Shown: in pieces, positions 1,061 to 46,868 of the stretch
Layout of the letters: the number at the start of each line of letters is the position of its first letter
Numbering within the stretch: position 1 is the stretch's first letter
NCBI GenBank assembly: GCA_016183325.1
Contig: JACPEV010000002.1
Location: 1-49,274, forward strand
Length of the DNA: 49,274 nucleotides
Reading direction: 5' to 3'
From: Candidatus Curtissbacteria bacterium
Lineage (GTDB): Bacteria; Patescibacteriota; Microgenomatia; Curtissbacterales; GWA2-41-24
Notes under the pieces: generated by a model
Seen by the model: the letters and a program-made list of their open reading frames with translations, nothing else
Databases searched by the model: none
What the model was told of the DNA's origin: nothing
Position numbers and translations under genes: made by a program

Positions 1061-1906
1061 CTACATTTTCTGGGGGGCGGAGACGCCAAGAAGCCTCAAG
1101 GTATTGGCAAGGGCGATTTTGGTCGCCGAAATTAAGGCAATCCTCGCCTCAGTTAATTCTTTATCGTCAGAAAGCACTGGACAATTTTCGTAAAACTTAT
1201 GGAAACTGTCGGCAAGGTCTATCGAATATGCCGTCAACCGGTGAACAGCAAAATTGCTCGCAATATCCTCGACAAGTTCAGGCAAACGGGTAATCTGCTT
1301 TATCAGGGACAGTTCGTAGTTGGTAGTTAATAGTTGGTAGTTTGCATTGTCATCCTGGAGGGAGTGAAACGACCGATAGGATCTCTTTTTTGAGATTCTA
1401 TCGCTTCGCTCCAGAATGACAGGGGTACGGGACTCGAGATTGACATTGGGGACTTTTGTCAAAATGCTTGCTATACGGGCGTGCGCATATTGAACATAGT
1501 AGACCGGATTTTTGTTGGACCTCTCCTTTGCCAAATCCAAATCAAAATCAATGTGAGAATTGGGGTCGTACATCAAAATAAAAAACCGCAAAGCATCAGG
1601 GCCAATTTCATCAAGTACCTCTCTTGCTGTAATAAACGTGCCCGATCGCTTTGACATCTTAACTATCTCAGAACCCCTCTTAAACCTAACCCACTGGTAT
1701 AAAATTACATGGAATTTGGAAGTCTCATGTCCCAGGCTAGCTATCGCCGCCTTGATTCTTGGCACATGCCCATGATGATTTGCACCCCAAACATCGACTA
1801 CTAAATCAGGACTATTCTCAAATTTTAGATTGTGATAGGCAATATCGTTGGCAAAATAAGTGTAAGAACCATCCGATTTAACAACCACCGATTCTCGATC
1901 TTTCAA
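1061..1906 (-). CDS. argS: Arginyl-tRNA synthetase, C-terminal part (out of frame with N-terminal part)
   Basis: KSDGSYTYFANDIAYHNLKF, DVWGANHHGHVPRIKAAI, KMSKRSGTFITAREVLDEIG, C-terminal LLGVSAPQKM; start is TTG and probably artificial. Confidence 0.85.
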   Translation of the reverse strand: MKDRESVVVKSDGSYTYFANDIAYHNLKFENSPDLVVDVWGANHHGHVPRIKAAIASLGHETSKFHVILYQWVRFKRGSEIVKMSKRSGTFITAREVLDEIGPDALRFFILMYDPNSHIDFDLDLAKERSNKNPVYYVQYAHARIASILTKVPNVNLESRTPVILERSDRISKKRSYRSFHSLQDDNANYQLLTTNYELSLIKQITRLPELVEDIASNFAVHRLTAYSIDLADSFHKFYENCPVLSDDKELTEARIALISATKIALANTLRLLGVSAPQKM

Positions 1907-3027
1907 AAATTGATCATTTGGTGCAAACCATTGACGGTGTTTGCGAGCTCGCTTTCCGAGTAGAACTTATCAAACTCAATGCCCATCGCGGCACAATCAG
2001 CCATTATTTCTTTGAACAAAATCTGCACCGCCTTCTTGCCAGCGTCAGCAGCATCAACGTCCCCCGAACCCGGTTTGGAATTGCGCTGCAAACCGGGTTC
2101 GTTTTCTGATTTGCTGCCAGCCGCAGTAAGATTTTTGGGGGTGGCAGTCGTGGGAGGGTTCCCAACAGCGCGCAGCTCGACATTGTTTTGTTGATCACCT
2201 TTCGATTTCAGTTTCGAGCGAGCACTGGCGGGAAGGAAACGACTGACAGGACCCGCAAAAATTTTCTTTGCAAGTTCGCGAACATACTCCCCTTTATACT
2301 CCTGCTCTTCGACCCGTTGACCATTTGACACGTTGACTATCGACTCGCCCAGCTTTCTTACCTGCTCGCCAATATCATTGTGATAATATTCACGCAGCAC
2401 ATCGTAGCCACAAAATTGCAAAACATTGGCCAAAACATCACCTATCGGTCCACCCCGAGCATTGCCAAAGTGAAGTGGACCGGTTGGGTTTGCGGAAACA
2501 AACTCCACCCTGGCCTTCTTGCCTTTCCCCAAACTGCTCGACCCAAAACCACTACCAGCTTTGAGCACAATCTCTACCTGTTCTTGCCAAATCTCAGGTT
2601 TTATAAAAAAATTGATAAAACCCGGAGGCGCGACCTCTAGTTTTTCGATGTACAGCAAATTTTTCAAACTATCAGCCAAAATCCTCGCAATCTCTATCGG
2701 AGATTGCTTAATTATACGGTATCCTTTGTCATTCTGGAGCCCGCTTCGCCCGCGAAGCGAGGCGAGCGAAGCGATAGAATCTCTTTTCGAGCTTGTTTTA
2801 GATCCTATCGGTCTCCGGCTATCGCCGGATCCCTCCAGGATGACAGAAGAAGTTATCTTAAGCGCTACATTGGTACTATAATCCCCAAACCTCCCACTGC
2901 TCGTCCTTGTGACTTCAATTTGTCTTTTGTCAATTGTCAATTGCTCGCCCGGCGAAGCCTTGGCGAAGCTGGGTAAATTGTCAATTGTTTTTTCCAAATC
3001 GCGTCTAATCTGTGCTCTCAAATTCAT
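1903..3027 (-). CDS. argS: Arginyl-tRNA synthetase, N-terminal part
   Basis: VEFVSANPTGPLHFGNARGGPIGDVLANVLQFCGYDVLREYYHNDIGEQ (class I HIGH-like HFGNARG). Confidence 0.85.
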   Translation of the reverse strand: MNLRAQIRRDLEKTIDNLPSFAKASPGEQLTIDKRQIEVTRTSSGRFGDYSTNVALKITSSVILEGSGDSRRPIGSKTSSKRDSIASLASLRGRSGLQNDKGYRIIKQSPIEIARILADSLKNLLYIEKLEVAPPGFINFFIKPEIWQEQVEIVLKAGSGFGSSSLGKGKKARVEFVSANPTGPLHFGNARGGPIGDVLANVLQFCGYDVLREYYHNDIGEQVRKLGESIVNVSNGQRVEEQEYKGEYVRELAKKIFAGPVSRFLPASARSKLKSKGDQQNNVELRAVGNPPTTATPKNLTAAGSKSENEPGLQRNSKPGSGDVDAADAGKKAVQILFKEIMADCAAMGIEFDKFYSESELANTVNGLHQMINF

Positions 3028-7066: not shown

Positions 7067-7176
7067 GTCATGCTGAACTTGTCTGGAGTCTAAAGACTCC
7101 GACCTGTAAGGTTTCAGCATCTATATAGATCCCGAAACCCATTCGGGTCGATAAAATCAGACGAGTTCGGGATGAC
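7067..7176. repeat. Palindromic dispersed repeat, same family as 683-787
   Basis: GTCATGCTGAACTTGTCTGGAGTCTAAAGACTCCGACCTGTAAGGTTTCAGCATC...GGGATGAC. Confidence 0.85.
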
Positions 7177-9535: not shown

Positions 9536-12262
9536 TTAAATCACAAAGTTTATCAATCGGTCGTTTACAAAAATCACTTTTCTCGGATTCGCATCACCGA
9601 TCCATCTTTGTACCTTATCAGATGCGAGTGCCAATTTCTCTGCTTCTTGCTGGCTAATTCCTGCCTCAACTGGCAGTCGATCTCTTAATTTGCCATTAAC
9701 TTGGACAACTAAAGTAATCTTTTTAGCTTGGGCCAAAGCCGGATCATATTTGGGCCACGGCTGGGAGTGAATTGAATCATGAATTATGAATTTTGCGACT
9801 TTAGGCCTTGTGAAAACATTATTAAGGTTTTTAGGTTTTTCTTTTCCATGATTCATGCTTCTTGATTCATGCTTCTGGAGTTCCTGCCACAGTTCCTCCG
9901 TTATATGCGGCGCAAACGGAGCAAGAAGCTTCAGGAATACTTCGTATTCCAAGCGAGTAACAGATGTTACAAAAGAGTCAGATGAGTCAGATGAGTCAGA
10001 AGTTCCAGAAACTTTTGACTCCTTTGACTCCTTTGCTACCTTTGTAACCTTTCCTGCGTGAACTTTTCCCGAAAGATAATTCAACCACTCCATTAGTGCT
10101 GCGACCGCCGTGTTGAACTTAATATTCTCAATGTCCTCAGTCACCTTCTTGATTGTCTTGTGCATCATATGCAGGTTTTCAGGTTGTTGGGTTATCGGGT
10201 TATCGGGATTTTTTTCTCCTGATGACCTTCTAACCTGGTCGCCTGATAACCAGTCACTTGTAACTTTTTCCCCCAGTCCCCACACCCTCTGCAAAAAATG
10301 ATAAACTCCGCGAATCCCGCCCGGATCCCACGGCGCCACCAAATCATACGGCCCGATAAATGCCAGATATAGCCTAATCGAATCTGCACCGTAGCTTTTT
10401 ACCTCTTCATCCGGATTAACCACATTTCCCCTCGATTTACTCATTCTGTGGCTATCCGGTCCTAAAATTACTCCATGGTTAACCCGTCTTTTGGCATATT
10501 CTTCAAAATCCACCAAATCCAAGTCCCTGAAGAATTTGGTGAAAAATCTGGAATACATAGTATGCCCTAAAGTGTGCTCCGCGCCTCCAAAATAAATATC
10601 CACAGGCATCCACTTTTGTGCCCTGAGCTTGTCGAAGGGCTCCCTCTCATTTTTTGGATCAAGATATCTGTAAAAATACCAAGAATTATCAAAAAAACCG
10701 TCCATCGTTTCCGGCTCCCTCTGGGCATCTCCGCCACACTTTGGACACTTTACCTTCATCCACGCCTCTGCTGTCGCTAAGGGTGGCTTTCCTTGAGGAG
10801 TAAAATCAACATCATAAGGCAACTCAACAGGCAGATCTTTTTCATCAACAGGCACAGCACCACACTTAGGGCAGTTAATTATAGGAATTGGTGTTCCCCA
10901 GTACCTTTGCCTGGAAATTGACCAATCATGAAGGTGATATTGAATTTGTGCCTGCCCTGTCTTTTCTTCTTCGAGCTTCTTAACTATTGCTTTCTTTGCA
11001 ATAGCAGAAGTCATTCCAGAAAATTCTCCAGAGTCTACTAGTATTCCTTCTCCAGTGAAAACTTCCTCCAAATTCAAAATCAGCTTGTCTCTATCTTTTT
11101 TGCCTGTCACCAAAGTAGGCTTGAGCGGAATTTTATATTTTTTAGCAAACTCCACATCTCGCTCGTCGTGAGCATCGCCAAATAAAGCACCAGTTCCATA
11201 ACCCATCAAGGCATAATCGGCAATCCAAACCGGGATTTCTTTTCCGCTTATGGGATTGATCGCGTAAGCTCCTGTAAACACGCCAGTTTTCTCCCTCATT
11301 TCTTTCCTTTCTACTTGGGACTTACCAGCCGATATAAATTGATATCTTTCTACTTCGTTTGAATTATTTTTGGGAACGATTTTGGTGAGTATTGGATGTT
11401 CTGGTGCTAATACCAAAAATGTTGCCCCAAAAAGCGTATCGACCCTCGTCGTAAAAACTTCAATTGTCCTCACCTCGAAGGAGTCAGAGCCCACCTTCGA
11501 GGTGTTTTCTTTAACCTCTATTCCCTCTCCCGCTTTGTCCCTCTGTCCCTCTGTCACCACCTCAAACCTTATTACCGCGCCCTCCCTTTTCCCAATCCAG
11601 TTATTTTGACCTTCGATTACTGATTTTGGCCAGTCAACCTCTTCACTGCCTGGCCACAACAACTCTTCTGCATAATCCGTTATCTTCAGAAACCATTGAC
11701 TAATCTCCTTCAACTCGATATCTGCTCCACACCTATCGCACTTTCCGGAAATAACCTGCTCATCAGCCAGAACTGTCTTATCGACCGGACACCAGTTTGA
11801 CAATGTTTTGCCCCTATAGGCAATTCCGCGCTCAAGCATTTTCAAAAAGATCCACTGATTCCATTTGTAATACTCGGGCAAACAAGTAATAGCCACGTGA
11901 TCCCAATCGAAAATTCCACCCATCAATTGAAACTGGTTCGTCATCGTCTCGATATTTTTGAAAGTCCAGTCTTGCGGGTGAAGTTTTCTCTTAATAGCTG
12001 CATTCTCTGCCGGCAATCCGAATGCATCAAAACCTACAGGAAAGAATACATCAAAACCTTGCATTCTTTTGAATCGGCCAAAAATGTCAGTGACAGCAAA
12101 TGCGAACCAGTGACCAATATGAAGATCACCCGAGGAGTAAGGTAATTCTACAAGCAGATAGAAGGGGGTTTTAGCAGATTTTAAGTCCACGCCATATAAC
12201 CCGGTCTCCTTCCACTTCTTCTGCCACCTAGTCTCAACCTCAGCCGGAATATACTTTTTCAT
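9536..12262 (-). CDS. leuS: Leucyl-tRNA synthetase
   Basis: ELPYSSGDLHIGHWFAFAVTDIFGRFKRMQGFDVFFPVGFDAFGLPAE; MSKSRGNVVNPDE; FTTRVDTLFGATFLVLAPEHP. Confidence 0.97.
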   Translation of the reverse strand: MKKYIPAEVETRWQKKWKETGLYGVDLKSAKTPFYLLVELPYSSGDLHIGHWFAFAVTDIFGRFKRMQGFDVFFPVGFDAFGLPAENAAIKRKLHPQDWTFKNIETMTNQFQLMGGIFDWDHVAITCLPEYYKWNQWIFLKMLERGIAYRGKTLSNWCPVDKTVLADEQVISGKCDRCGADIELKEISQWFLKITDYAEELLWPGSEEVDWPKSVIEGQNNWIGKREGAVIRFEVVTEGQRDKAGEGIEVKENTSKVGSDSFEVRTIEVFTTRVDTLFGATFLVLAPEHPILTKIVPKNNSNEVERYQFISAGKSQVERKEMREKTGVFTGAYAINPISGKEIPVWIADYALMGYGTGALFGDAHDERDVEFAKKYKIPLKPTLVTGKKDRDKLILNLEEVFTGEGILVDSGEFSGMTSAIAKKAIVKKLEEEKTGQAQIQYHLHDWSISRQRYWGTPIPIINCPKCGAVPVDEKDLPVELPYDVDFTPQGKPPLATAEAWMKVKCPKCGGDAQREPETMDGFFDNSWYFYRYLDPKNEREPFDKLRAQKWMPVDIYFGGAEHTLGHTMYSRFFTKFFRDLDLVDFEEYAKRRVNHGVILGPDSHRMSKSRGNVVNPDEEVKSYGADSIRLYLAFIGPYDLVAPWDPGGIRGVYHFLQRVWGLGEKVTSDWLSGDQVRRSSGEKNPDNPITQQPENLHMMHKTIKKVTEDIENIKFNTAVAALMEWLNYLSGKVHAGKVTKVAKESKESKVSGTSDSSDSSDSFVTSVTRLEYEVFLKLLAPFAPHITEELWQELQKHESRSMNHGKEKPKNLNNVFTRPKVAKFIIHDSIHSQPWPKYDPALAQAKKITLVVQVNGKLRDRLPVEAGISQQEAEKLALASDKVQRWIGDANPRKVIFVNDRLINFVI

Positions 12263-14294: not shown

Positions 14295-15452
14295 TTATTT
14301 TAATATCATTTCTACCAATTTATCTAAACCTTCGCCGGTCTTGGCAGAAATGGCAATTACCTTTTTCCTGTGTTTTGCAAATTCATCAACCGCTGATTGT
14401 ATCACTTGTGGGGTGCTTTGATCTATTTTGTTAAGGACAATGATTTCTTTCTTTTTAGCCAATTCTTTTGAATAAGCCTTAAGCTCATTACGGACAGTTT
14501 GATAATCACGCCAAACACCAGAAGTATCAAAGGTCTCAAAAGTTTCCGAGGTTTCAAAGGTATTTAAAACATTTGTTCCCTTTGAAACTTTTGCTACTTT
14601 TGATACGTCAACTAGATGCACCAAAACCTTTGTCCTCTCAATATGCCGCAAGAATAAATCCCCGAGTCCCTTGCCTTTGCTTGCACCTTCAATTAACCCT
14701 GGAATATCCGCCAGCACAAGCTGGCGGGGTGATCGGGTTATCTGGTTATCAGGTTGTCGGGCTTCTGATCCATCGCTTACCTGATTACCTGACTGCCTGA
14801 TCACCTGACCACCTGGCGTGCGTAGCACGCCAAGATTCGGCTCAAGAGTCGTAAAGGGATAAGGAGCTATTTTGGGTCTGGCAGCTGTCAAAGCCGCAAG
14901 AAGGGTCGATTTCCCGCTATTTGGCAGACCAATCAAACCTACATCTGCAATCAGCTTTAGCTCCAACGTCAGATGAGCACTCTCGCCTTCTTCACCTGAC
15001 TCGCCAGCCCTGGGGCGTCTGCCAAACTCATCTCTCAGCTTTGAATTGCCCCTACCCCCTTGCCCGCCACGGGCCACGAGAACTTTTTGGCCTTCGCTCA
15101 CTAAGTCAAAGTCAAAGTCGGAAGTGGAAAGTTTATTTTCTCTCGACTCTTCACTTTGACTCTTCACTTTGACTAAAGTTCCAACAGGAACTTTCAATAC
15201 GAAATCCTCTCCATCCGCTCCGCGTCTCAGATTCGAAAGCCCATTTGTCCCATCCGCCGCTTTATAGTCCTTAATGTATCGAAAGGGCTCTAAGGTATTC
15301 AGATCTCGGGTGGCCTCCAAGAAAACGTTCCCCCCGTTGCCTCCATCTCCGCCATCAGCCTTGCCGTATCGTTTCCCCTTAATATGGCGAAATGAACCGG
15401 CGCCATTGCCACCACTGCCGGCGCGGACATTAATCCTGGCAAAATCAATCAT
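14295..15452 (-). CDS. obgE: Obg/CgtA family GTPase
   Basis: MIDFARINVRAGSGGNGAGSFRHIKGKRYGKADGGDGGNGGNVFLEA; GLIGLPNSGKSTLLAALTAARPKIAPYPFTTLEPNLGV; ADIPGLIEGASKGKGLG. Confidence 0.97.
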   Translation of the reverse strand: MIDFARINVRAGSGGNGAGSFRHIKGKRYGKADGGDGGNGGNVFLEATRDLNTLEPFRYIKDYKAADGTNGLSNLRRGADGEDFVLKVPVGTLVKVKSQSEESRENKLSTSDFDFDLVSEGQKVLVARGGQGGRGNSKLRDEFGRRPRAGESGEEGESAHLTLELKLIADVGLIGLPNSGKSTLLAALTAARPKIAPYPFTTLEPNLGVLRTPGGQVIRQSGNQVSDGSEARQPDNQITRSPRQLVLADIPGLIEGASKGKGLGDLFLRHIERTKVLVHLVDVSKVAKVSKGTNVLNTFETSETFETFDTSGVWRDYQTVRNELKAYSKELAKKKEIIVLNKIDQSTPQVIQSAVDEFAKHRKKVIAISAKTGEGLDKLVEMILK

Positions 15453-17329: not shown

Positions 17330-18748
17330 TTACTTGATGTCTTTACTGAGTCCTTCTAAAAACTCTTTATTTGAGGCCGTCTTCGCCAGTCTCTCTACCA
17401 AAATCTCTGTCTGCTCATCTGGGTTTAAAACGGAAAGCATCCGACGCATTGTGACTATTCTCTTGTAGTCCTCGACACTAAACAAAAGCTCTTCCTGCCT
17501 AGTCGAAGACCTATTTACATCAATCGCCGGGTAAATTCTGCGCTCAGCCAGCTTCCGATCAAGATGCAGCTCCATATTGCCGGTTCCCTTAAATTCTTCA
17601 TAGATCAAATCGTCCATACGTGAGCCGGTATCAATAAGAGCCGTACCAATAATTGTCAAACTTCCACCTTCCTCGCAGTTTCTGGCAGCACCAAAAAACC
17701 TCTTTGGAGGGTAAAGTGCCGCCGGGTCAAAACCGCCTGTCAGAGTCCTGCCGGATGGCGGAACGGAAAGATTGTAAGCTCGGGCTAAACGTGTAATCGA
17801 ATCCAAAAGAATAACCACGTCAACACCTTTCTCGACTAAACGTTTGGCCCGATCCAGACAAATTTCCGCAACCCTCGTCTGATCCTCGGCCGGCTCGTCA
17901 AAATTGGAGGCGATAACCTCACCTTTAACCGATCGGGAAATATCCGTGACCTCTTCCGGTCTCTCTCCAATTAAAGCCGCCATCAAGTGAATCTTTGGGA
18001 AATTTTCAGAAATGCCGCGGGCGACATCTTTTAAAATCGTCGTTTTACCCGCCTTTGGCGGCGAAACAATCATTCCCCGCTGGCCCAAGCCAATCGGTGC
18101 AATAAGATCAATGACTCTTGTTGAAAGCGGTGTTTTGCCTGTTTCAAGCTTTAATTTCTTATTAGGATAAATGGGAGTTAGGTCTTCAAATTTTACTCTC
18201 TTGCCTTGCTTTTCAGCATCCACATCGTTGACCTTAACTACTTTCAAAAGACCAAAGTAGCGTTCATTCTCTTTCGGCGGCCTTCCCAGACCACGAACAT
18301 CGTCGCCTGGCCTAAGCATAAATTTACGAATTTGTGAAGCAGATATATAAACGTCCTGGTCACTCGGCCTGAATTTAGGCCTTAAGAAACCGTGCCCATC
18401 GCCGGCAATATCCAAAATCCCATTCACTTCTTGGGTTGGTACGTCACGACCTGAAGCTGCATATTCATCTTCACCGTTTTGATAATCCCGGCCAAATCCT
18501 CGAGGCGGAGCTACATACGATTCGATAGGCGGTTCCATTGGAGCTGGCTTGTCCATAGTTGAAGACTGCGGCGCCGCAATCGGTCTCGGTGTATAAGGGC
18601 CCGGTGGGGTCCGGAGATCGATCACGGAAGCCACGGGCGGCTTTTCCTCACTCGCCTCGCTGCCAGCCTCGCCGAGTCTAGGCGGGCGAAGCGGGCCGTT
18701 TGCGCTCTTCAGATCATTCTTTACTCTCACGGAAACTTTAGTAGGCAT
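17330..18748 (-). CDS. rho: Transcription termination factor Rho
   Basis: [93 protein letters not shown]. Confidence 0.97.
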
Positions 18749-20660: not shown

Positions 20661-21320
20661 ATGCCTAGAGGTCCGCGATTCGTCTTTCCAAATGCTTTTT
20701 ACCATGTCTTTAATAGAGGCATCAACAAGCAACCAATCTTTTTAGCTAAAGCCGATTATCAATTCTTCCTTAAAAAACTCCTCGATCTCAAAAAGAAATA
20801 CGACCACTCTATCTATGCCTTTTGCCTTATGCCCAACCATTTCCATATCTCCATGCAAACGCGCAAAATCACCATCTCCAAAATCATAGCCTCGCTAGCC
20901 ACCAGTTATTCGATGTATTTTAACCGCACTTATTCCCATTTTGGCCCGGTATTTCAAAACCGATTCAAAAGCATTCTAATTGAAAACGATTCTTATTTCC
21001 TCAAGCTTTCTCAATATATTTATCTTAATCCTGTTAAAGCAAAATTGGTTGCGGATCCCCTAGCCTATGAATTCAGCAGCATCAGAGAGGCCTTAGGTAA
21101 GGAACCTCTGCATTTTCTTGATGAAGATATTATTAGACTGATTGGCCAAACCAAGAGTTCACAAGAAGAATATGCGCAGTTTATTTATGGTGGAGTTGAA
21201 GAAGACTTAATCGAAATTGAAAAATTATTTGAAAAAGAAGAAGTAGTGTTGGGGTCAGAAAGATTTGCTACGTTGACCCAAAAGAAGTATTTAAGAAGGC
21301 ATCTTAAAAACAATGCTTAG
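20661..21320 (+). mobile_element. REP-associated tyrosine (Y1/HUH) transposase, RAYT-like
   Basis: MPRGPRFVFPNAFYHVFNRGINKQPIF..., CLMPNHFHISM (HUH), YIYLNPVKAKLV; flanked by GGGACGGTCCT (20605-20615) and AGGACCGTCCC (21348-21358). Confidence 0.9.
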
Positions 21321-22907: not shown

Positions 22908-23121
22908 ACCTATCTTTTCTTGTCATTCCGAACAAGCCCTCGGTATTCGCCTTTCAGGCTCAAAAGTATGTTTTCTCTTCAATTCATCCGAGGCCTGATA
23001 GGCCTCGGTATTCTTGAAGTAGAAAATAAATTCAGGATGACATATCAGAGATGACAAAAAGACAGTTTATTACAACAACCTTTTCTTGACAATCCGAAGC
23101 TGAAAGGTTTTCAGCAGCCTT
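22908..23121. repeat. Inverted-repeat element (GCTGAAAACCT...AGGTTTTCAGCAGC) containing an 85-nt repeat also at about 35868-35950
   Basis: AAGCCCTCGGTATTCGCCTTTCAGGCTCAAAAGTATGTTTTCTCTTCAATTCATCCGAGGCCTGATAGGCCTCGGTATTCTTGAAGT at both loci. Confidence 0.8.
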
Positions 23122-28939: not shown

Positions 28940-30312
28940 GCGTAGCGAATTGCCGCCTCAAGACCAGAAAAACGCTCGCTGGAAATAATGTCGGAAAAAC
29001 CCATTCTTTTTGCCTCAGCTTTTCTTTTGTCAAAATTATTTACAGATCGTAGCTCGCCAAGTAAACCCACTTCTCCAAAAGCACAAATCTTAGGCTCAAT
29101 CGGTTTGTCCCAAGCAGCCGAAGCCACGGCCAAAGCTGCGGAAAGGTCCGCTGCCGGCTCGCCTATTTTTAAACCTCCCGCCACATTAACATAAACGTCA
29201 GAACTGTTAAGTTTAACACCGGTCCGGGAAAGCGCTGCTAAAACAATCTGTACTCTTGAAAAATCAAGGCCGGTAACTCTTCTGGTGGGCAAACCGAATA
29301 AACTCGACGTGCAAAGAGCCTGAACCTCAGCCAAAATCGGCCTTCCGCCGGCAATCGTAGAAGTTACTACACTACCCACTCGCCCCGCGCTCCTCTCTGC
29401 CAAGAATATTTCCGAAGGATTAGCTACCTCTACAAGTCCGCTATCTCGCATTTCAAATACCCCCACTTCAAAAGTCGATCCGAACCTGTTCTTAAGAGAT
29501 CTCAAAAGTCTGAATGAATGCATGCCATCTCCTTCAAGATTACACACGGCATCAACTAAATGTTCCAAAACCTTTGGTCCGGCTATACTTCCTTCTTTGG
29601 TCACGTGTCCGACAATAAAAATCGGAACTCCGCTTGATTTTGCCAGCCTTTGCAAAATTTGTGCACACTCCCTGACTTGACCAACACTTCCGGCAGAACC
29701 CGTCAGCTTATCCGTAAATATAGTCTGGATTGAATCTACAATCGCCAGTCTTGGTACAACTTTGTAGCATGCCGCCAAAATTGCCTCAACATTTGTGGTT
29801 GCCAGTATATATAGATTTTCTGGTGGTTTGCTGATTCTGTCTGAACGAAGTTTGACTTGCTGTGCCGACTCCTCAGCGGTAACGTAGAGCACGGAGTGCT
29901 GGTTATCAGGTATTCGGGTACTCAGGCTATCAGGTTTTTTTCTACCTGATGACCTGACACCCTGATGGCCTGGTAACCCTGCTACAATGTGCATAGCACA
30001 TTGCAAAAGCAGCGTGCTTTTGCCAATTCCCGGCTCGCCGGAAATCAAAACAATCGATCCGGGCACAATCCCACCACCTAAAACCCGATCAAACTCCGAA
30101 AAGCCCGTTGGGATCCTCTTGATTTGCTGACTCTTGACTTCGGAAAGCTTAATTAAATTTTGAGTTAACTGTTCACCGTTAACTGTCAACTGTGAACTCG
30201 GCAAGACTGTCTCGACCAGGCTATTCCACTCCCCGCAATTGGGACACTTGCCCAAAAACGAGGCAGATTTGTACCCGCACTGTTGACAAACAAACTCACT
30301 TCGCAATTTCAT
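28927..30312 (-). CDS. radA: DNA repair protein RadA/Sms
   Basis: FVCQQCGYKSASFLGKCPNCGEWNS; ISGEPGIGKSTLLLQ; LYVTAEESAQQVKLR. Confidence 0.96.
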   Translation of the reverse strand: MKLRSEFVCQQCGYKSASFLGKCPNCGEWNSLVETVLPSSQLTVNGEQLTQNLIKLSEVKSQQIKRIPTGFSEFDRVLGGGIVPGSIVLISGEPGIGKSTLLLQCAMHIVAGLPGHQGVRSSGRKKPDSLSTRIPDNQHSVLYVTAEESAQQVKLRSDRISKPPENLYILATTNVEAILAACYKVVPRLAIVDSIQTIFTDKLTGSAGSVGQVRECAQILQRLAKSSGVPIFIVGHVTKEGSIAGPKVLEHLVDAVCNLEGDGMHSFRLLRSLKNRFGSTFEVGVFEMRDSGLVEVANPSEIFLAERSAGRVGSVVTSTIAGGRPILAEVQALCTSSLFGLPTRRVTGLDFSRVQIVLAALSRTGVKLNSSDVYVNVAGGLKIGEPAADLSAALAVASAAWDKPIEPKICAFGEVGLLGELRSVNNFDKRKAEAKRMGFSDIISSERFSGLEAAIRYACGA

Positions 30313-30457: not shown

Positions 30458-31903
30458 TTACCTATAAAGTATCGGCTTTTCGCGCACTACCGGAACCAGA
30501 GAAATACGTCTCAAACGACTATCAATCGACTCAATCAAACATTCAACCACTTCTCCCTGCTTAAACGAAACATTGGGTGGAATTTTGGAGATATGCATTA
30601 AACCCTCTACCACACCTTGTCCTGAGCCTGCTTGCCCTGAGCCCATCGGGTCTGAGCCTCTGGGTCGAAGACCTGTCGAATGGGCCGAATCTGTCGAAGG
30701 ATCCGAAAAAGCAACAAATACTCCGTATGGGGTCACCTTGGAAACTTTGCCAGTAACAGTTTGATCCAGAGAATACTTACTTGCAGCAAGCGTAAAAGGA
30801 TCATCAAAAAGCTGTTTTATTGATAGATTAAGTCTACCCGTCACCTCGTCTTTAGCAGTCACCATGACGTCAATCTTGTCACCTACCTTAAACAATTTCG
30901 CCGGATCATCAATTTTCTCCCAAGAAAGTTCTGAAATATGAACCAGCCCCTCGAGCTTCCCCTGGTTATCAGGTTGCCGGGTTACCGGGCTATCGGGTTT
31001 ATTTTTTCCCGATGACCTGACCACTCTTCGAGCCTGAGCCGATTCGGTCTGAGCCTCACGGTCGAAGACCTCAGAGCCGAAGGCCTGACTACCCGAAGAC
31101 CCAACATCAATCTCCACAAACACTCCAAAAGGCAAAACCGCCGTCACCACTCCAGCAAACTTTTGACCGATTTTAATTTTCGAAAAAAGAGCTAAAATCT
31201 CAGAAAGATCACGGGCATCTTGCTGCCTTTGGGAAAAAATTAATCTATTTGTGGACCTGTCAACCTCAAGAGGCACAACCAGCAGCCTTTTACCGATCAG
31301 CTGCTCAAGTTTTGAGGTGCCAGCCGCCTGAGTGCCAGTCTGTCTAAGCGACTCGTCATGAACCGAGTTGCGTGATGTCTGTTCCCGACTCGTCTGAGCG
31401 GTCAGGGAAAGTTGCGAAGCTGGTAAAAATCCGCGCAAACCAAGCCAGTCACAAATAATTCCACCCCGATTAACCTCAAGTGCAACCACCTCAATTGCCT
31501 CATTACTCTTGAGTTTTTCTTCAAGATCTTGCCACCTCTTCTCTCCGGAAAGCTTCCTCAGGGACAAAACAACTTGGCCAGCATCATTCTCGACAAATAA
31601 AACGATGGCATCAATTGTATCGCCAAGAGCAAGTCTGGACACAATATCGGCAATTGATGAAAGCTCGCGACCGCTAACTATACCTTCCGACTTTGCACCA
31701 ATCTCGATCAGAATTTCAGAAGGGGTAATGGAAACAATTTGTCCTCTTACCTCCTGTCCTCGCCGAATTACAGGTATCTTGTAGCCGGTTGCGGCCAAGA
31801 GCTCGGCCATGGTGAGTTTATGACCACCGTTTGTTGACTTGCCTGAAAGTTTTTTAGAAGATACTTGCTTCGATGATTTTACCGCTTTTGGTTGCTTTAC
31901 CAA
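30458..31903 (-). CDS. S1-domain RNA-binding protein / ribosomal protein S1 homologue (four S1 domains)
   Basis: GVFVEIDVG...EGLVHISELSW; GVFVAFSD...EGLMHISKI. Confidence 0.9.
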   Translation of the reverse strand: MVKQPKAVKSSKQVSSKKLSGKSTNGGHKLTMAELLAATGYKIPVIRRGQEVRGQIVSITPSEILIEIGAKSEGIVSGRELSSIADIVSRLALGDTIDAIVLFVENDAGQVVLSLRKLSGEKRWQDLEEKLKSNEAIEVVALEVNRGGIICDWLGLRGFLPASQLSLTAQTSREQTSRNSVHDESLRQTGTQAAGTSKLEQLIGKRLLVVPLEVDRSTNRLIFSQRQQDARDLSEILALFSKIKIGQKFAGVVTAVLPFGVFVEIDVGSSGSQAFGSEVFDREAQTESAQARRVVRSSGKNKPDSPVTRQPDNQGKLEGLVHISELSWEKIDDPAKLFKVGDKIDVMVTAKDEVTGRLNLSIKQLFDDPFTLAASKYSLDQTVTGKVSKVTPYGVFVAFSDPSTDSAHSTGLRPRGSDPMGSGQAGSGQGVVEGLMHISKIPPNVSFKQGEVVECLIESIDSRLRRISLVPVVREKPILYR

Positions 31904-33112: not shown

Positions 33113-33251
33113 ATTTTGAGACGCACTATACAGTGCATCTCACCTAAACTCTCTCAATATACCAAAAAGGTTCAGAACTCCGCCCTCTATTAAAAAGGCG
33201 AAGAGGTGTACCATATGGTACACCTCGAAGCCCTGAACCGAATGGTTTAGG

Positions 33252-33400
33252 GCTGGCATTGAGCTATCTTCGCACCCAGTTGCCCGGAAACTATTGTCAC
33301 CGCTAGCGCGTTTCACTATCCTGTTCGGAATGGCCCGCTTCGACTCGAAATCGAATCGAGGCGAGGAAGGAGTGGGACCACGCTGCACAAAACACCAGCG
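33252..33400 (-). rRNA. 5S rRNA with hairpin insertion in loop C
   Basis: Reverse complement: GCTGGTGT...GTGGTCCCAC...CATTCCGAACAGGATAGTGAAACGCGCTAGCGGTGACAATAGT...CTGGGTGCGAAGATAG...ATGCCAGC. Confidence 0.88.
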
Positions 33401-33409
33401 ATAGGAATT

Positions 33410-33883
33410 TTACTCTTTTGTGGAAGAATTTTCAACAGCTAACTTTAGCGAAGCATTAAAGGAGTTTAGAATTCTCTGTCCAATTTCCAGGCTATGAACT
33501 AATAGCATAGCATCCTCGGGCGGCAACCCGTTACTCCCTCGAGGATAAATGAAATTCTCCAAATTAGCTTGAATTTCCGGAATTGCCTGGCTATAACCCT
33601 CTAAACCTAGTAAACCAAGCATTCGACCATGAAATTGTGACAAAGTATAAGTTCTCTTAAGAAAATCCTTTTTAGTACCTCCATCTACCTCATTTAATAC
33701 AGCTGCTACCGTTGGGCTCTTTTCAGCAGATACAACTAAATGATCAACAAGACTTCTTTCACTATTCGGAGACTTTTGCAGGTATTCTCTTTCAAGAAGG
33801 TCTGCCTGATATTTCTCAAGAACAAATAATATTCGAGAATAAAGTTCTGTTTTATTTTGTTGTCCGTTAGACCTTTCCGCCAT
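33410..33883 (-). CDS. Hypothetical protein
   Basis: 157 aa ORF, protein-like composition, ends just upstream of 5S. Confidence 0.55.
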   Translation of the reverse strand: MAERSNGQQNKTELYSRILFVLEKYQADLLEREYLQKSPNSERSLVDHLVVSAEKSPTVAAVLNEVDGGTKKDFLKRTYTLSQFHGRMLGLLGLEGYSQAIPEIQANLENFIYPRGSNGLPPEDAMLLVHSLEIGQRILNSFNASLKLAVENSSTKE

Positions 33884-34091
33884 TTTTCAAATAAAAAACA
33901 CTCAGTCTTTGAGTGCCCTTTCTATTTTGAGAAGCAAAACTTTTCTATTATAGGGCATATTTTACGCCTAATTTGGCGATTTGTCAAAATATAATCCCAA
34001 TTAAAAATCACACAAGTATTGGGCACGTGTGTGACATTAATCTGAATATATTAAATCTGAAACCAAGCAAGCTTGTCAAGCCACCAAAATA

Positions 34092-34224
34092 CTGACATTA
34101 CCCCACTTTCATCTGTCATCCTGAATTCATTTCAGGATCCAGATGCTGAAACCTTACAGGTCGGAGTCTTTAGACTCCAGACAAGTTCAGCATGACAATT
34201 TAGCCACAAACTGGGGTAATGTTA
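34092..34224. repeat. Full palindromic element with terminal inverted repeats CTGACATTACCCCA / TGGGGTAATGTTAG
   Basis: Read directly; internal sequence is the reverse complement of 683-787. Confidence 0.85.
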
Positions 34225-34310
34225 GACCAAAATATGTTATGCGAATGTATTACGCGAAATCAAAACCTTGAATAACAGTTTGGTACTAATGGTACTAATA
34301 TACTAGTATA

Positions 34311-35896
34311 TTAGTAGTTGTCATCTGCAAGGCGCAAGGTTGACGATAACAAATAACTCTTAGCAAAATCCCTTGAAACTAAATCAAAGATTTTTTCCAA
34401 AAACCTGTCCTCGTCCTCTCTCAATGCTCCGACTAGATGCCCGTCCCTAAATCTGGTCTTCATAAAAGTGATCACTTCGTTTGCAGTCATGCCGCCCCAG
34501 TTAGCACATAAATCCTCCAAAGTTGGGTATAAGGCGGCAAAAAAGCCAAATCATGTTCAAAAAAGGGATTAGTTCTTTGGGATTGCCAAAAAGGTGTTGA
34601 GATTGTGTAGTTAGATCCAGTCGGACGCACAACCGAAATATCCTTTCTAAAAACACTGGGCATTTTACTGATAAAAATTGTCCCCTCAGCCAACTTTTGG
34701 CTTGCGTTCTCTTCCTGCAAAATCTGATAGCTTGCGTAAGGAACACCATATAAAGACAAACTGGCAAGATCTTGTTTTAAAAGTCCTCTTCTTCGAAGAA
34801 GAGTCAAGACATCTTTGTCGGAGCCAACTATTAAATCTCTCAGATTCATAGCCTTCGCTCTACCACCCAAAGTATCATTCAAATGACCAAACAAAACTGT
34901 TTTTTGCATTTCCTCAAGTAACCGATTTACGGGATGTCGATATTGAAAACGGTACATGTGCTCCCGATAAGCAAGGAATCTTTGAGAAATTGCGATTCCC
35001 TTTGGGAAATCCGAAAAAGTAATGTTTCCATGAGAATCCATTGTCAGCTCCTCACCTAGAAATCTCTCAAAATGAGGCTGTTCGTACCCCAAATAAGCAC
35101 TATCTAAATTTAGATATGCCGCAGTATCAGCAGTTTTTAGCAAAAACCCTAACGTACCCTGCTCATTTAAAATCTCTTTCATGAGCTTTATTTCCTCTTG
35201 GTCAAATGTAGATCTCGCCAAAATTGCCAGTGGTTCGGAAGCATCATCCAGTACTGTCAGTAATCGCTGAAGGTGATCTCCGACAAGATTCCTTTCCCGC
35301 AGCATTTTTAAAAGCTCAGGGTCTTTTTGAATTGCGTATTCTTCTGTTTCTTTAAAAAAATCTTCTCCCCTATGCGAAAAAACCGGATGCATATAATCAT
35401 GAATTAAGCCGGTAAATCCCAAAAGAGCTAATTGTTCCTCATCCAAATTCAAAGTCTTGCCAAAATCTACCATCACAGTCGCCACTTCTATCCCGTGACG
35501 GTAGCGGTTATTTAGGCTCATTTCGGAAAAACTTGGAATCTCAACTTTAACATCGCCATCTTCCAAATATTCAAGTCTGGCCGTGTATCCAAGCTGCCAA
35601 TGTCTGATCATTTGAGGGCTAGCTACATAGGCACAGTTCTCCAAAATTCTCCTTGTTTGCCATGATTCAAATCGCAAAAGCAGCCTATCAAGTGCCAGAT
35701 CGCTGTTCCAAATTGGATCCTCTTGCGGCTCTATTTGTTCGCTAAGTTTTTTGGGGGTTGATGAAGGAAGATAGATACCGGGCCGTTCATATTCCCACCG
35801 TTCCCTACCTGCCATAAGGAATAATAATAAATCAGTGCTGAAAATTAATAAACTTCCGAGGGCTAAAAGCCCTCGGTATTCGCCTTTCAGGCTCAA
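34311..35896 (-). CDS. HD-superfamily hydrolase encoded over two overlapping frames (34487-35896, then 34311-about 34545)
   Basis: GLIHDYMHPVFSHRGEDFF HD-like motif; frame change at TTTTTTG (34538-34544) joins DLAF to FAALYPTLEDLCANWGGMTANEVITFMKTRF. Confidence 0.6.
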
Positions 35897-36109
35897 AAGT
35901 ATGTTTTCTCTTCAATTCATCCGAGGCCTGATAGGCCTCGGTATTCTTGAAGTCGAAAATAAAGCAGGGTTACAACTTATTCGTTTATATTCGCATATTT
36001 AGGATTAATTATTTAAAAAATCCTATACTGCAAATTTCAACAATTAATGTTAATTTGTATGCGCATTCGCATACATTCGTATCCTCTTTAACGCTTTCAA
36101 AACTGAATG

Positions 36110-36186
36110 GAAAGATCGGAGATCGGATATCAGAAGTCGGATATCAGAAATTATCTGAAATCCGAAATCCGACATCCGAAATCTGA
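36110..36186. repeat. Hairpin of drifting short units just downstream of the 23S 3' end
   Basis: GATCGGAGATCGGATATCAGAAGTCGGATATCAGAAATTATCTGAAATCCGAAATCCGACATCCGAAATCTGATT. Confidence 0.75.
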
Positions 36187-36191
36187 TTAAT

Positions 36192-40146
<3,955 letters not shown>

Positions 40147-40335
40147 AAATTCCATTCAGTTTTGAAAACATTAAATTTCAAAACCAAATTTTACTTACAT
40201 CCAATATTCGGTTGTTAATGTGCTTGCCTGCGAAGCAGGCATACGAATTTAAACTAATAAAAACTAATTTGAACTAATATTCGTACAAATTCGTCATCAT
40301 TCGTTCTCATTCGTTAAAGCGCCTTCGGCGCTTAG

Positions 40336-40407
40336 TGGACCCAAGGAGACTCGAACTCCTAACCTCCTCAGTGCAAATGAGGCGCGCTACCGTTGCGCCA
40401 TGGGCCC
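40336..40407 (-). tRNA. tRNA-Ala(TGC)
   Basis: GGGCCCATGGCGCAACGGTAGCGCGCCTCATTTGCACTGAGGAGGTTAGGAGTTCGAGTCTCCTTGGGTCCA; G3:U70, anticodon loop TTTGCAC. Confidence 0.95.
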
Positions 40408-40786
40408 GATTGTTTACCCTGAGCTTGCTCGCCTCGCTTCGCGGGCGAAGCGGGTCGAAGGGTTTGCACGCCAATCGAGTCCTACAGCTGACAAATCAAA
40501 TGTCAGTTGTCAATTGTTAATTATTACTTAAATTGTGGGGAAAACTAATTTAGGGCGCGTAAAATGCCCAAAGGATCTTAAATGGAAAAAGTTTCAACAT
40601 TAAAAAATTAGTTTCCCTTCTTGTCTCGCCGAATCCGGCTTTGCCGGAGAAGGCGGACAAAAATGGTGTTAACCATCGCCGCTCAGTATAGCAAGGATTA
40701 TTCAGACCTGTCAACCACCTATAGTAATTTGCGCCGAAATCAAAAATTTTTTAAAATATCTATATCAGGTTTGCTAAGAGCAACTT

Positions 40787-40999
40787 CTATTGAGGTTCTG
40801 TTTTCGCTACCCTTTTTGCAGCATATTCCACAGCTGTTTTAATATCAGCTTCTTTAAGTTGAGGAAAGTCTTCTAAGATATCTTTAATTGTTAATTTTTG
40901 AGCTAAAAGCCTCAAAATTTGCTCCACTGTAATTCTGGTTCCAGCCACAACCGGTTTTCCAAGCATAATTTTAGGATCAATAATAATTTTTGCCATCAA
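40787..40999 (-). CDS. DUF433-like protein (possible antitoxin)
   Basis: IIIDPKIMLGKPVVAGTRITVEQILRLLAQKLTIKDILEDFPQLKEADIKTAVEYAAK. Confidence 0.85.
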   Translation of the reverse strand: MMAKIIIDPKIMLGKPVVAGTRITVEQILRLLAQKLTIKDILEDFPQLKEADIKTAVEYAAKRVAKTEPQ

Positions 41000-41148
41000 C
41001 TAATTATAACATGAAATTTATACCAAATGGTTGCCAAAACCCCGGATGTGAACAAACCACCTTCCAGGTGGACTAGCCAGTGAACCAGCATGGTTCAAGG
41101 TCCTAAACCGAAATATTTCTGGTTTATGGGCCGTCCCGCCAGAGACCC

Positions 41149-45563: not shown

Positions 45564-46868
45564 CTAAATAATCGCCTTTTCGTAAACCTCTCTCAGCACC
45601 TTTTGCATAACCTTAATCGAAAACTTTATGTTGTATCTCTTTCTTGCTTCACTACCCATCTCGTGTCGTAACTTTCGATTTGTTATTAACCTCTCCAACT
45701 TTTCCACCAGCTCCCCCAAATTCCCCGGCTCAACTACAAAACCAGTCTTACCATCCAAAACCAACTCCGGCAAGGCACAAACTCGACTGACAATTGTCGG
45801 TATCCCAAATGACATTGCCTCCAAAACCACAAAACCAAATCCTTCAACTTTTGGCGGCACCAAAACAAAAATATCCGCCTTTGGAAAAATTTCCCTCATC
45901 AACTTTTCTCTTGGTACAAAGTCATACTGTTCTATATTGTTCGAACGCAGTGAGAACTTACCCCTCCTTAACCTGTCATCCTGAACTTGTCTGGAGTCTA
46001 AAGACTCCGACCTGTAAGGTTTCAGGATCTTGCGGTAACTTCTCATTTCATTCGAAGAATAAGGCTCTTCCTTGTATTTTTTTGGAACCTCTCCAATAAT
46101 TGTCAAGGTAACGTTCGGATACTTCGCGGACAATTTCTTAAATGCTTCCAGCAAAAGCGGTCCTCCTTTTCGCACAAACCAGATTCCCACAAACAAAATA
46201 TTAACAAGATTCTTGTCATTCTGGAGCGAACGAAGTGAGCGATAGAATCTATTTCCAGTTAGAGATTCTCTCGTGGTCGTTGCCACTCCAGAATGACTTG
46301 ATTGAATAGGTATTCCCGGATAAACAACCCCCAACTTCCCAGCAGGAACCCCAAGACTTCTGTGAACCCTTTCGGCAAACTTCGACAAAACGACAATCTT
46401 CTTGGCCAACTGCCAATTCGTATCACAATCAACAACTCCCAATTTCCTAAAAAGCTGTCGCCTCAACCAATACCCTATTTTTATTCTCCACTCTGGCCAG
46501 TTTAGATAATCCTTCAAAAATAAATAGTTGGAGGAGGAATCAGAAAGAATAATCGGAATTTGGGCACCAGCAATCTTAAGACTGTAACCATGACAATGGA
46601 CAAGATCAAATTTACCATTAATTCTTAAACATTGACTCCCTGATGATGTCGGCAGAATCTTAACTTTAACCAAGGTTGATAAAATCCTCTGCATTGGCAG
46701 ATTTTCAACTTGTCCCTGTCTGAGAGCATCTAAATGGTGAGTATAGACAACCCCTTTTGGCGGATTCGCAAGCAAACTCTTTGTATAAGTACTCTCTCCA
46801 CCCATCAAAAATTTCAGATTTTTAGGAATATCGGGATCAAGTGGCGAAACAAGAAGTACTCTAAGCAT
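45564..46868 (-). CDS. Glycosyltransferase family 4-like with two palindromic-repeat-encoded insertions
   Basis: NILFVGIWFVRKGGPLLLEAFKKL; KADIFVLVPPKVEGFGFVVLEAMSFGIPTIVSRV. Confidence 0.88.
   Translation of the reverse strand: MLRVLLVSPLDPDIPKNLKFLMGGESTYTKSLLANPPKGVVYTHHLDALRQGQVENLPMQRILSTLVKVKILPTSSGSQCLRINGKFDLVHCHGYSLKIAGAQIPIILSDSSSNYLFLKDYLNWPEWRIKIGYWLRRQLFRKLGVVDCDTNWQLAKKIVVLSKFAERVHRSLGVPAGKLGVVYPGIPIQSSHSGVATTTRESLTGNRFYRSLRSLQNDKNLVNILFVGIWFVRKGGPLLLEAFKKLSAKYPNVTLTIIGEVPKKYKEEPYSSNEMRSYRKILKPYRSESLDSRQVQDDRLRRGKFSLRSNNIEQYDFVPREKLMREIFPKADIFVLVPPKVEGFGFVVLEAMSFGIPTIVSRVCALPELVLDGKTGFVVEPGNLGELVEKLERLITNRKLRHEMGSEARKRYNIKFSIKVMQKVLREVYEKAII

Follow-up and report, generated by a model that had tools for sequence, protein, structure and literature searches.

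A 5S rRNA gene with a hairpin in loop C

The window, the whole 49,274-nt stretch of DNA that was analysed (contig JACPEV010000002.1 of assembly GCA_016183325.1), comes from a Candidatus Curtissbacteria genome belonging to a tiny, uncultured bacterium of the Microgenomates class. A 5S rRNA gene of 149 nt occupies positions 33251-33399 on the minus strand. As the original prediction had proposed should be checked, the gene was aligned to RF00001, and the full model was matched end to end (33399-33251, all 120 model positions; score 46.5 bits, gathering score 38 bits), showing an intact 5S core with extra sequence placed in loop C. This was the only 5S gene detected by RF00001 in the 1.21-Mb genome; a second, normal copy, named in advance as grounds for abandoning the prediction, was looked for in this 95.35%-complete assembly of 30 contigs and none was found. 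A putative promoter-like site matching the consensus (TTGAAA-17-TAAAAT, 33407-33435, minus strand) lies just upstream, and a simple scan found no terminator adjoining the gene. Two ORFs separate the 5S and 23S genes (interval 33400-41000) and the window yielded no 16S gene; linkage among the rRNA genes is therefore incomplete at best. The 23S gene itself (36323-40150, 3828 nt) has several inserts of ~140-190 nt relative to its model, as well as 46 nt that are perfectly duplicated in tandem (38121-38212).

Alignment to the closest normal 5S (117 nt, from the same-family genome G001, with 88% identity over the core) resolved the extra sequence into one 32-nt block at 33334-33365 (CTCG...CGGG), after TCCTTC and before CCATTCCGAAC. 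The site had been predicted correctly; with a C flanking the block at either end, the coordinates first given, 33333-33364, are equivalent. Placed by hand on the E. coli numbering, the block falls between positions 36 and 37, immediately 3' to the 5' strand of helix III. The 5' core (33366-33399, minus strand) comprises the 5' strands of helix I, helix II and helix III (TCCT) and the first loop C bases, according to the RF00001 alignment and the fold, while the same alignment places the rest of loop C, from CCATTCCGAAC, and helices III, II, IV, V and I in the 3' core (33251-33333, minus strand).

The insert (minus strand) reads CTCGCCTCG-ATTCGATTTCGAGT-CGAAGCGGG, and in isolation is predicted to fold at -18.1 kcal/mol (z = -3.3; 1 of 200 shuffles equally good) into a stem of 13 bp, interrupted by a single C.A mismatch and capped by an AUUU loop. 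The hairpin of about 32 nt in loop C of an otherwise normal gene, the 149-nt length and the letters of the insert were all as originally described; the long stem was also recognised, with pairing slightly different from that found here. In the predicted fold of the full 5S RNA, helix I and helix II are kept and the insert forms a separate hairpin. Within the window the exact 32-mer is found a single time, and none of the shuffles contains it. The gene shares with expanded 5S an insert of at least 13 nt within an intact conserved core, at a catalogued site (34-37 in loop C), and predicted to make its own helix.

Tolerance of a hairpin at this position had been considered unexpected because of contact between loop C and uL5. 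This expectation is not supported, since Stepanov & Fox 2021 (PMC7812874) describe loop C 34-37 as an insertion site in Clostridia and Halanaerobiales and as one of the least obstructed sites of bacterial 5S, so a hairpin there is not surprising. Compensating deletions in uL5, a further suggestion, were absent from six insert-bearing genomes compared with insert-free genomes. The window gene resembles the expanded 5S of Stepanov & Fox (PMC7812874) in having a hairpin insert at the same site in an intact core. Those genes are from Clostridia and Halanaerobiales and mostly long, with no CPR example named in the main text, whereas the window insert is short, lies in the sole 5S of its genome and consists of a repeat from that genome. 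A survey of CPR rRNA genes for insertions (PMC11270868) counted only inserts of at least 100 bp and reported none in 5S. As far as the main texts of open-licence papers show, expanded 5S of the loop C type is new for CPR.

A palindromic repeat dispersed through the same genome

The arms of the insert, CTCGCCTCG...CGAAGCGGG, are those of a palindromic repeat dispersed through its own genome, a family membership that the original prediction overlooked. Searching for the arm pattern with at most one mismatch per arm and at most 40 nt between arms gave 16 matches in a 442-kb sample of the genome, on which all own-genome element counts rest, compared with 0-1 in Markov controls and 2 in reversed sequence. 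The exact pattern was present in 20 of 59 relatives, and the reversed control in none. In the insert, 18 arm bases match the dispersed family. This match to 16 places, against 0-1 in Markov controls, argues against the insert being an ordinary 5S expansion segment of local origin, inherited vertically without any mobility, in which case its likeness to the repeats would reflect ancient common origin or convergence of GC-rich hairpins. Such a history would fit with loop C 34-37 being an established site of expansion, and is weighed further below against the distribution of inserts.

Most other copies lie in open reading frames: 12 of the 14 non-5S copies in the sampled genome are within open frames of at least 100 codons. 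The arm-pattern search located one copy in frame inside argS (2740-2766, minus strand; codons ~89-97), nested in a larger palindromic insert. Between two conserved blocks this argS has 46 codons, compared with ~2-13 in relatives in which both blocks were matched; the added stretch is a nested palindrome (fold z -7.9), and homology picks up again past it. The same search found a copy in the N-terminal part of the rho ORF (18651-18695, plus strand; the ORF is on the minus strand) and another beside tRNA-Ala (40428-40454, plus strand), outside any long open frame and flanked by CCCTGAGCTTG...TCGAAGGG. At C4:13416-13439 of the same genome, also in an open frame, there is a 24-mer that differs by one base from the 5S insert of genome G043, CTCGCCTCGATTCGTCGAAGCAGG. 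Tip lengths of dispersed copies are 3n in 37 of 42 cases (P 2.7e-13), which is the mark of a repeat that resides chiefly in reading frames. Several 5S genes depart from this rule with inserts of 32 nt, as expected, because 5S has no frame to maintain. Overall the element measures ~18-48 bp, and 24-32 nt in 5S genes. No match to the arm pattern was found in the 23S gene of the window, no target-site duplication was seen at the copies, and their flanks have no GTAG or CGTC tag in common.

The closest precedent is the Rickettsia palindromic elements (RPEs), described in PMC2229807, which cites Ogata et al. 2002, as palindromic repeats found in frame in conserved protein genes and also in two structural RNA genes, those for tmRNA and RNase P RNA. 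Here too, the argS segment, which is absent from relatives, and the 3n tips indicate in-frame insertion in conserved protein genes, and the window 5S is a structural RNA gene with an insert. RPEs are 105-146 bp and rickettsial, whereas the window element is ~18-48 bp, from CPR, and found in 5S rRNA, repeatedly at one site. The element also resembles REP elements of the GTAG/CGTC super-families (PMC3733652) as a dispersed, imperfect palindrome of 20-40 bp with many copies, the 16 matches in 442 kb, in a genome with RAYT-like genes. Unlike REP elements, it carries no GTAG/CGTC tag and lies largely inside genes; in the flanks retrieved, it was not found beside a RAYT-like gene except for the one copy noted below.

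A candidate mobiliser in the window is a Y1/REP-associated tyrosine transposase-like ORF (20661-21320, plus strand; PF01797 E 2.5e-12; NF047646 69.4 bits, below the cut-off of 80). It is one of six Y1_Tnp ORFs in the genome, any of which may have had a role in moving the element. Of the six genes, a single one has a copy of the element in its retrieved flanks, ~1 kb away.

Recurrence of loop C inserts among relatives

Comparison with related CPR genomes, also proposed at the outset, revealed the same loop C hairpins elsewhere. A 5S match was obtained in 117 of 144 relatives, nearly all 109-120 nt long with a minority of 136-149 nt. Class-wide, RF00001 matched at least 302 of 385 genomes, and laxer searches added the long 5S of G041 and G255; these figures come from the best matches listed, with weak or missing matches re-searched in 40 genomes. 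Of the ~304 class genomes in which a 5S was matched, at least 22 have a long one, and the insert is always in loop C. Fourteen class genomes in eight families have an insert with the window's arms at the same 5S site (G000, G010, G011, G028, G041, G043, G167, G255, G280, G314, G343, G355, G360 and G368), the most divergent being those of G028 and G167.

A 3'-junction scan of a named genome collection returned 13 records from Curtissbacteria, Levybacteria, Blackburnbacteria, Roizmanbacteria, GW2011_GWA2_44_7, three Parcubacteria (Paceibacteria) and one 'Bacillota'. Rfam confirmed a 5S at the site in 10 of the 13. Named records of Paceibacteria (Giovannonibacteria), Curtissbacteria, Levybacteria, Blackburnbacteria and Roizmanbacteria have the same element at this 5S site. 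Record L162 is the 5S already found in G041, which is GW2011_GWA2_44_7, and L163 is cut at the locus end. The 'Bacillota' record, L161, was a chance match that is not 5S and carries cobalamin riboswitches.

Eight further class genomes have loop C hairpins that lack the window's arms (G030, G082, G032, G165, G121, G177, G292 and G322), so a mobile-element origin is not the sole route to such an expansion, and the vertical history introduced above gains from them. These armless hairpins are at loci L033-L039 (G121, G032, G082, G030) and L144, L153, L156 and L157 (G292, G322, G165, G177); some are shared by members of a family (f13, f15). For the arm-bearing form the distribution argues the other way: insert-free close relatives are frequent in the same families, leaving the insert patchy within them.

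Recurrence also bears on whether the window 5S is a pseudogene or an assembly artefact, with the normal 5S missing from an assembly that is 95% complete and in 30 contigs. We regard this as highly improbable, given that the core is intact and matched end to end and that other MAGs have a single-copy 5S with an insert at the same site. A normal copy alongside was seen in only one inserted genome, G167, which holds a normal 5S at C15:196-312 (L142) and an inserted one at C25:2781-2921 (L159).

Inserts and the genes around them have discordant degrees of similarity. In G000, which has the window's form, and G041, all 32 insert bases are identical and the 5S cores are 65% identical; under equal rates the chance of such insert identity is 1e-6 for this pair. 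G343, G355, G360 and L169 have one common 30-nt insert form in cores that are 62-81% identical (L160 and L166 repeat G343 and G355, and the badly trimmed L170 was left out). Because identical inserts sit in discordant cores, the inserts look younger than the 5S cores, or appear to have been copied between genes. Both the window's pair and the 30-nt group speak against vertical expansion.

Hairpin tips differ between 5S and dispersed copies as well. GNRA or UUCG on a paired stem caps 6 of 8 distinct 5S tips compared with 0 of 22 dispersed ones (P 4.7e-5, taking distinct tips as independent); the AUUU tip of the window's own 5S is neither. The GNRA-capped form was found in 6 of 385 genomes, each time in 5S and nowhere else, and among the genomes searched the window's 32-mer was found in only two 5S genes. 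This tetraloop bias suggests either that these copies were selected as RNA or that the element has a sub-lineage specific to 5S. Since the exact 5S tips are nearly absent elsewhere, the 5S copies would form a distinct sub-family as opposed to fresh copies of local repeats. The near-absence of these tips outside 5S also favours vertical expansion, which we nonetheless consider unlikely in view of the shared arms, the discordant cores and the patchy distribution.

Possible origin and fate of the insert

We propose that the loop C hairpin is probably a small mobile palindromic repeat, REP- or RPE-like, that landed in the 5S gene and was kept. The ribosome would, on this view, have incorporated selfish DNA. 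On this sequence-based model, a palindromic repeat with arms CTCGCCTCG/CGAAGCGGG would land at the exposed 5' side of loop C, and other copies of the element would have entered protein genes of the genome in frame. The self-complementarity of the insert and its exposed point of entry should let the 5S RNA still fold, with the insert forming its own hairpin away from the core and with helix III, loop C and uL5 and uL18 binding essentially unchanged. The insert would then be carried in mature 5S as an expansion segment, presumably neutral for the ribosome, and drift or selection would have brought 5S copies closer to stable RNA hairpins with GNRA or UUCG caps.

Retention in mature 5S can be set against an intron-like fate, in which the insert would be transcribed and then removed to leave a 5S of normal length or a two-piece RNA. 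Known self-splicing introns are far larger than 32 nt, and the tetraloop-capped hairpins and the folding of the core with the insert in place favour retention. We therefore judge removal very unlikely, even though CPR 16S and 23S genes hold many long insertion sequences (PMC11270868) and removal is not excluded for most expanded 5S according to Stepanov & Fox (PMC7812874). A structural parallel is the 108-nt insertion of Halococcus morrhuae 5S, an inserted helix that leaves the core undisturbed in the ribosome by cryo-EM (PMC7530397); that insertion differs in being next to loop E, archaeal and much longer.

A more specific and tentative reading, which we hold as possible though doubtful, is that the GNRA/UUCG-capped copies are a 5S-specific lineage: a hairpin of 24-32 nt moving from 5S to 5S between distant CPR lineages, as a minute homing-like element that encodes no gene. 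It would insert in loop C every time and persist as a benign expansion segment.

If the insert is indeed a captured repeat, dispersed palindromic repeats that fold harmlessly as RNA are a likely source for some ribosomal expansion segments. Short palindromic inserts within conserved genes further suggest that in CPR bacteria proteins as well as rRNA may be shaped by selfish DNA that forms hairpins. Many lineages of these organisms, which are known for reduced genomes, show the expansion in the same RNA loop, and this repeated one-site event offers a natural series for testing the effect of a 5S loop C hairpin on the ribosome.

Other extra segments and repeats were noted in the window. Further in-frame extra segments lie in radA (29899-29988), obg (14727-14819), leuS (10166-10243) and rpsA (30956-31102); several of these are palindromic at the DNA level, in a CAGGTNATCAGG-type family, and those in radA and obg are absent from PDB homologues. 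The argS gene (1061-3027) is represented by two ORFs that overlap, 1903-3027 and 1061-1906, which may reflect a frameshift or a gene split in two. A 56-nt GTCATNCTGAACTTG... repeat is present in three copies that are 96-98% identical (683-738, 7067-7122 and 45975-46030), and a 97-nt repeat in two copies that are 99% identical (22934-23030 and 35867-35963).
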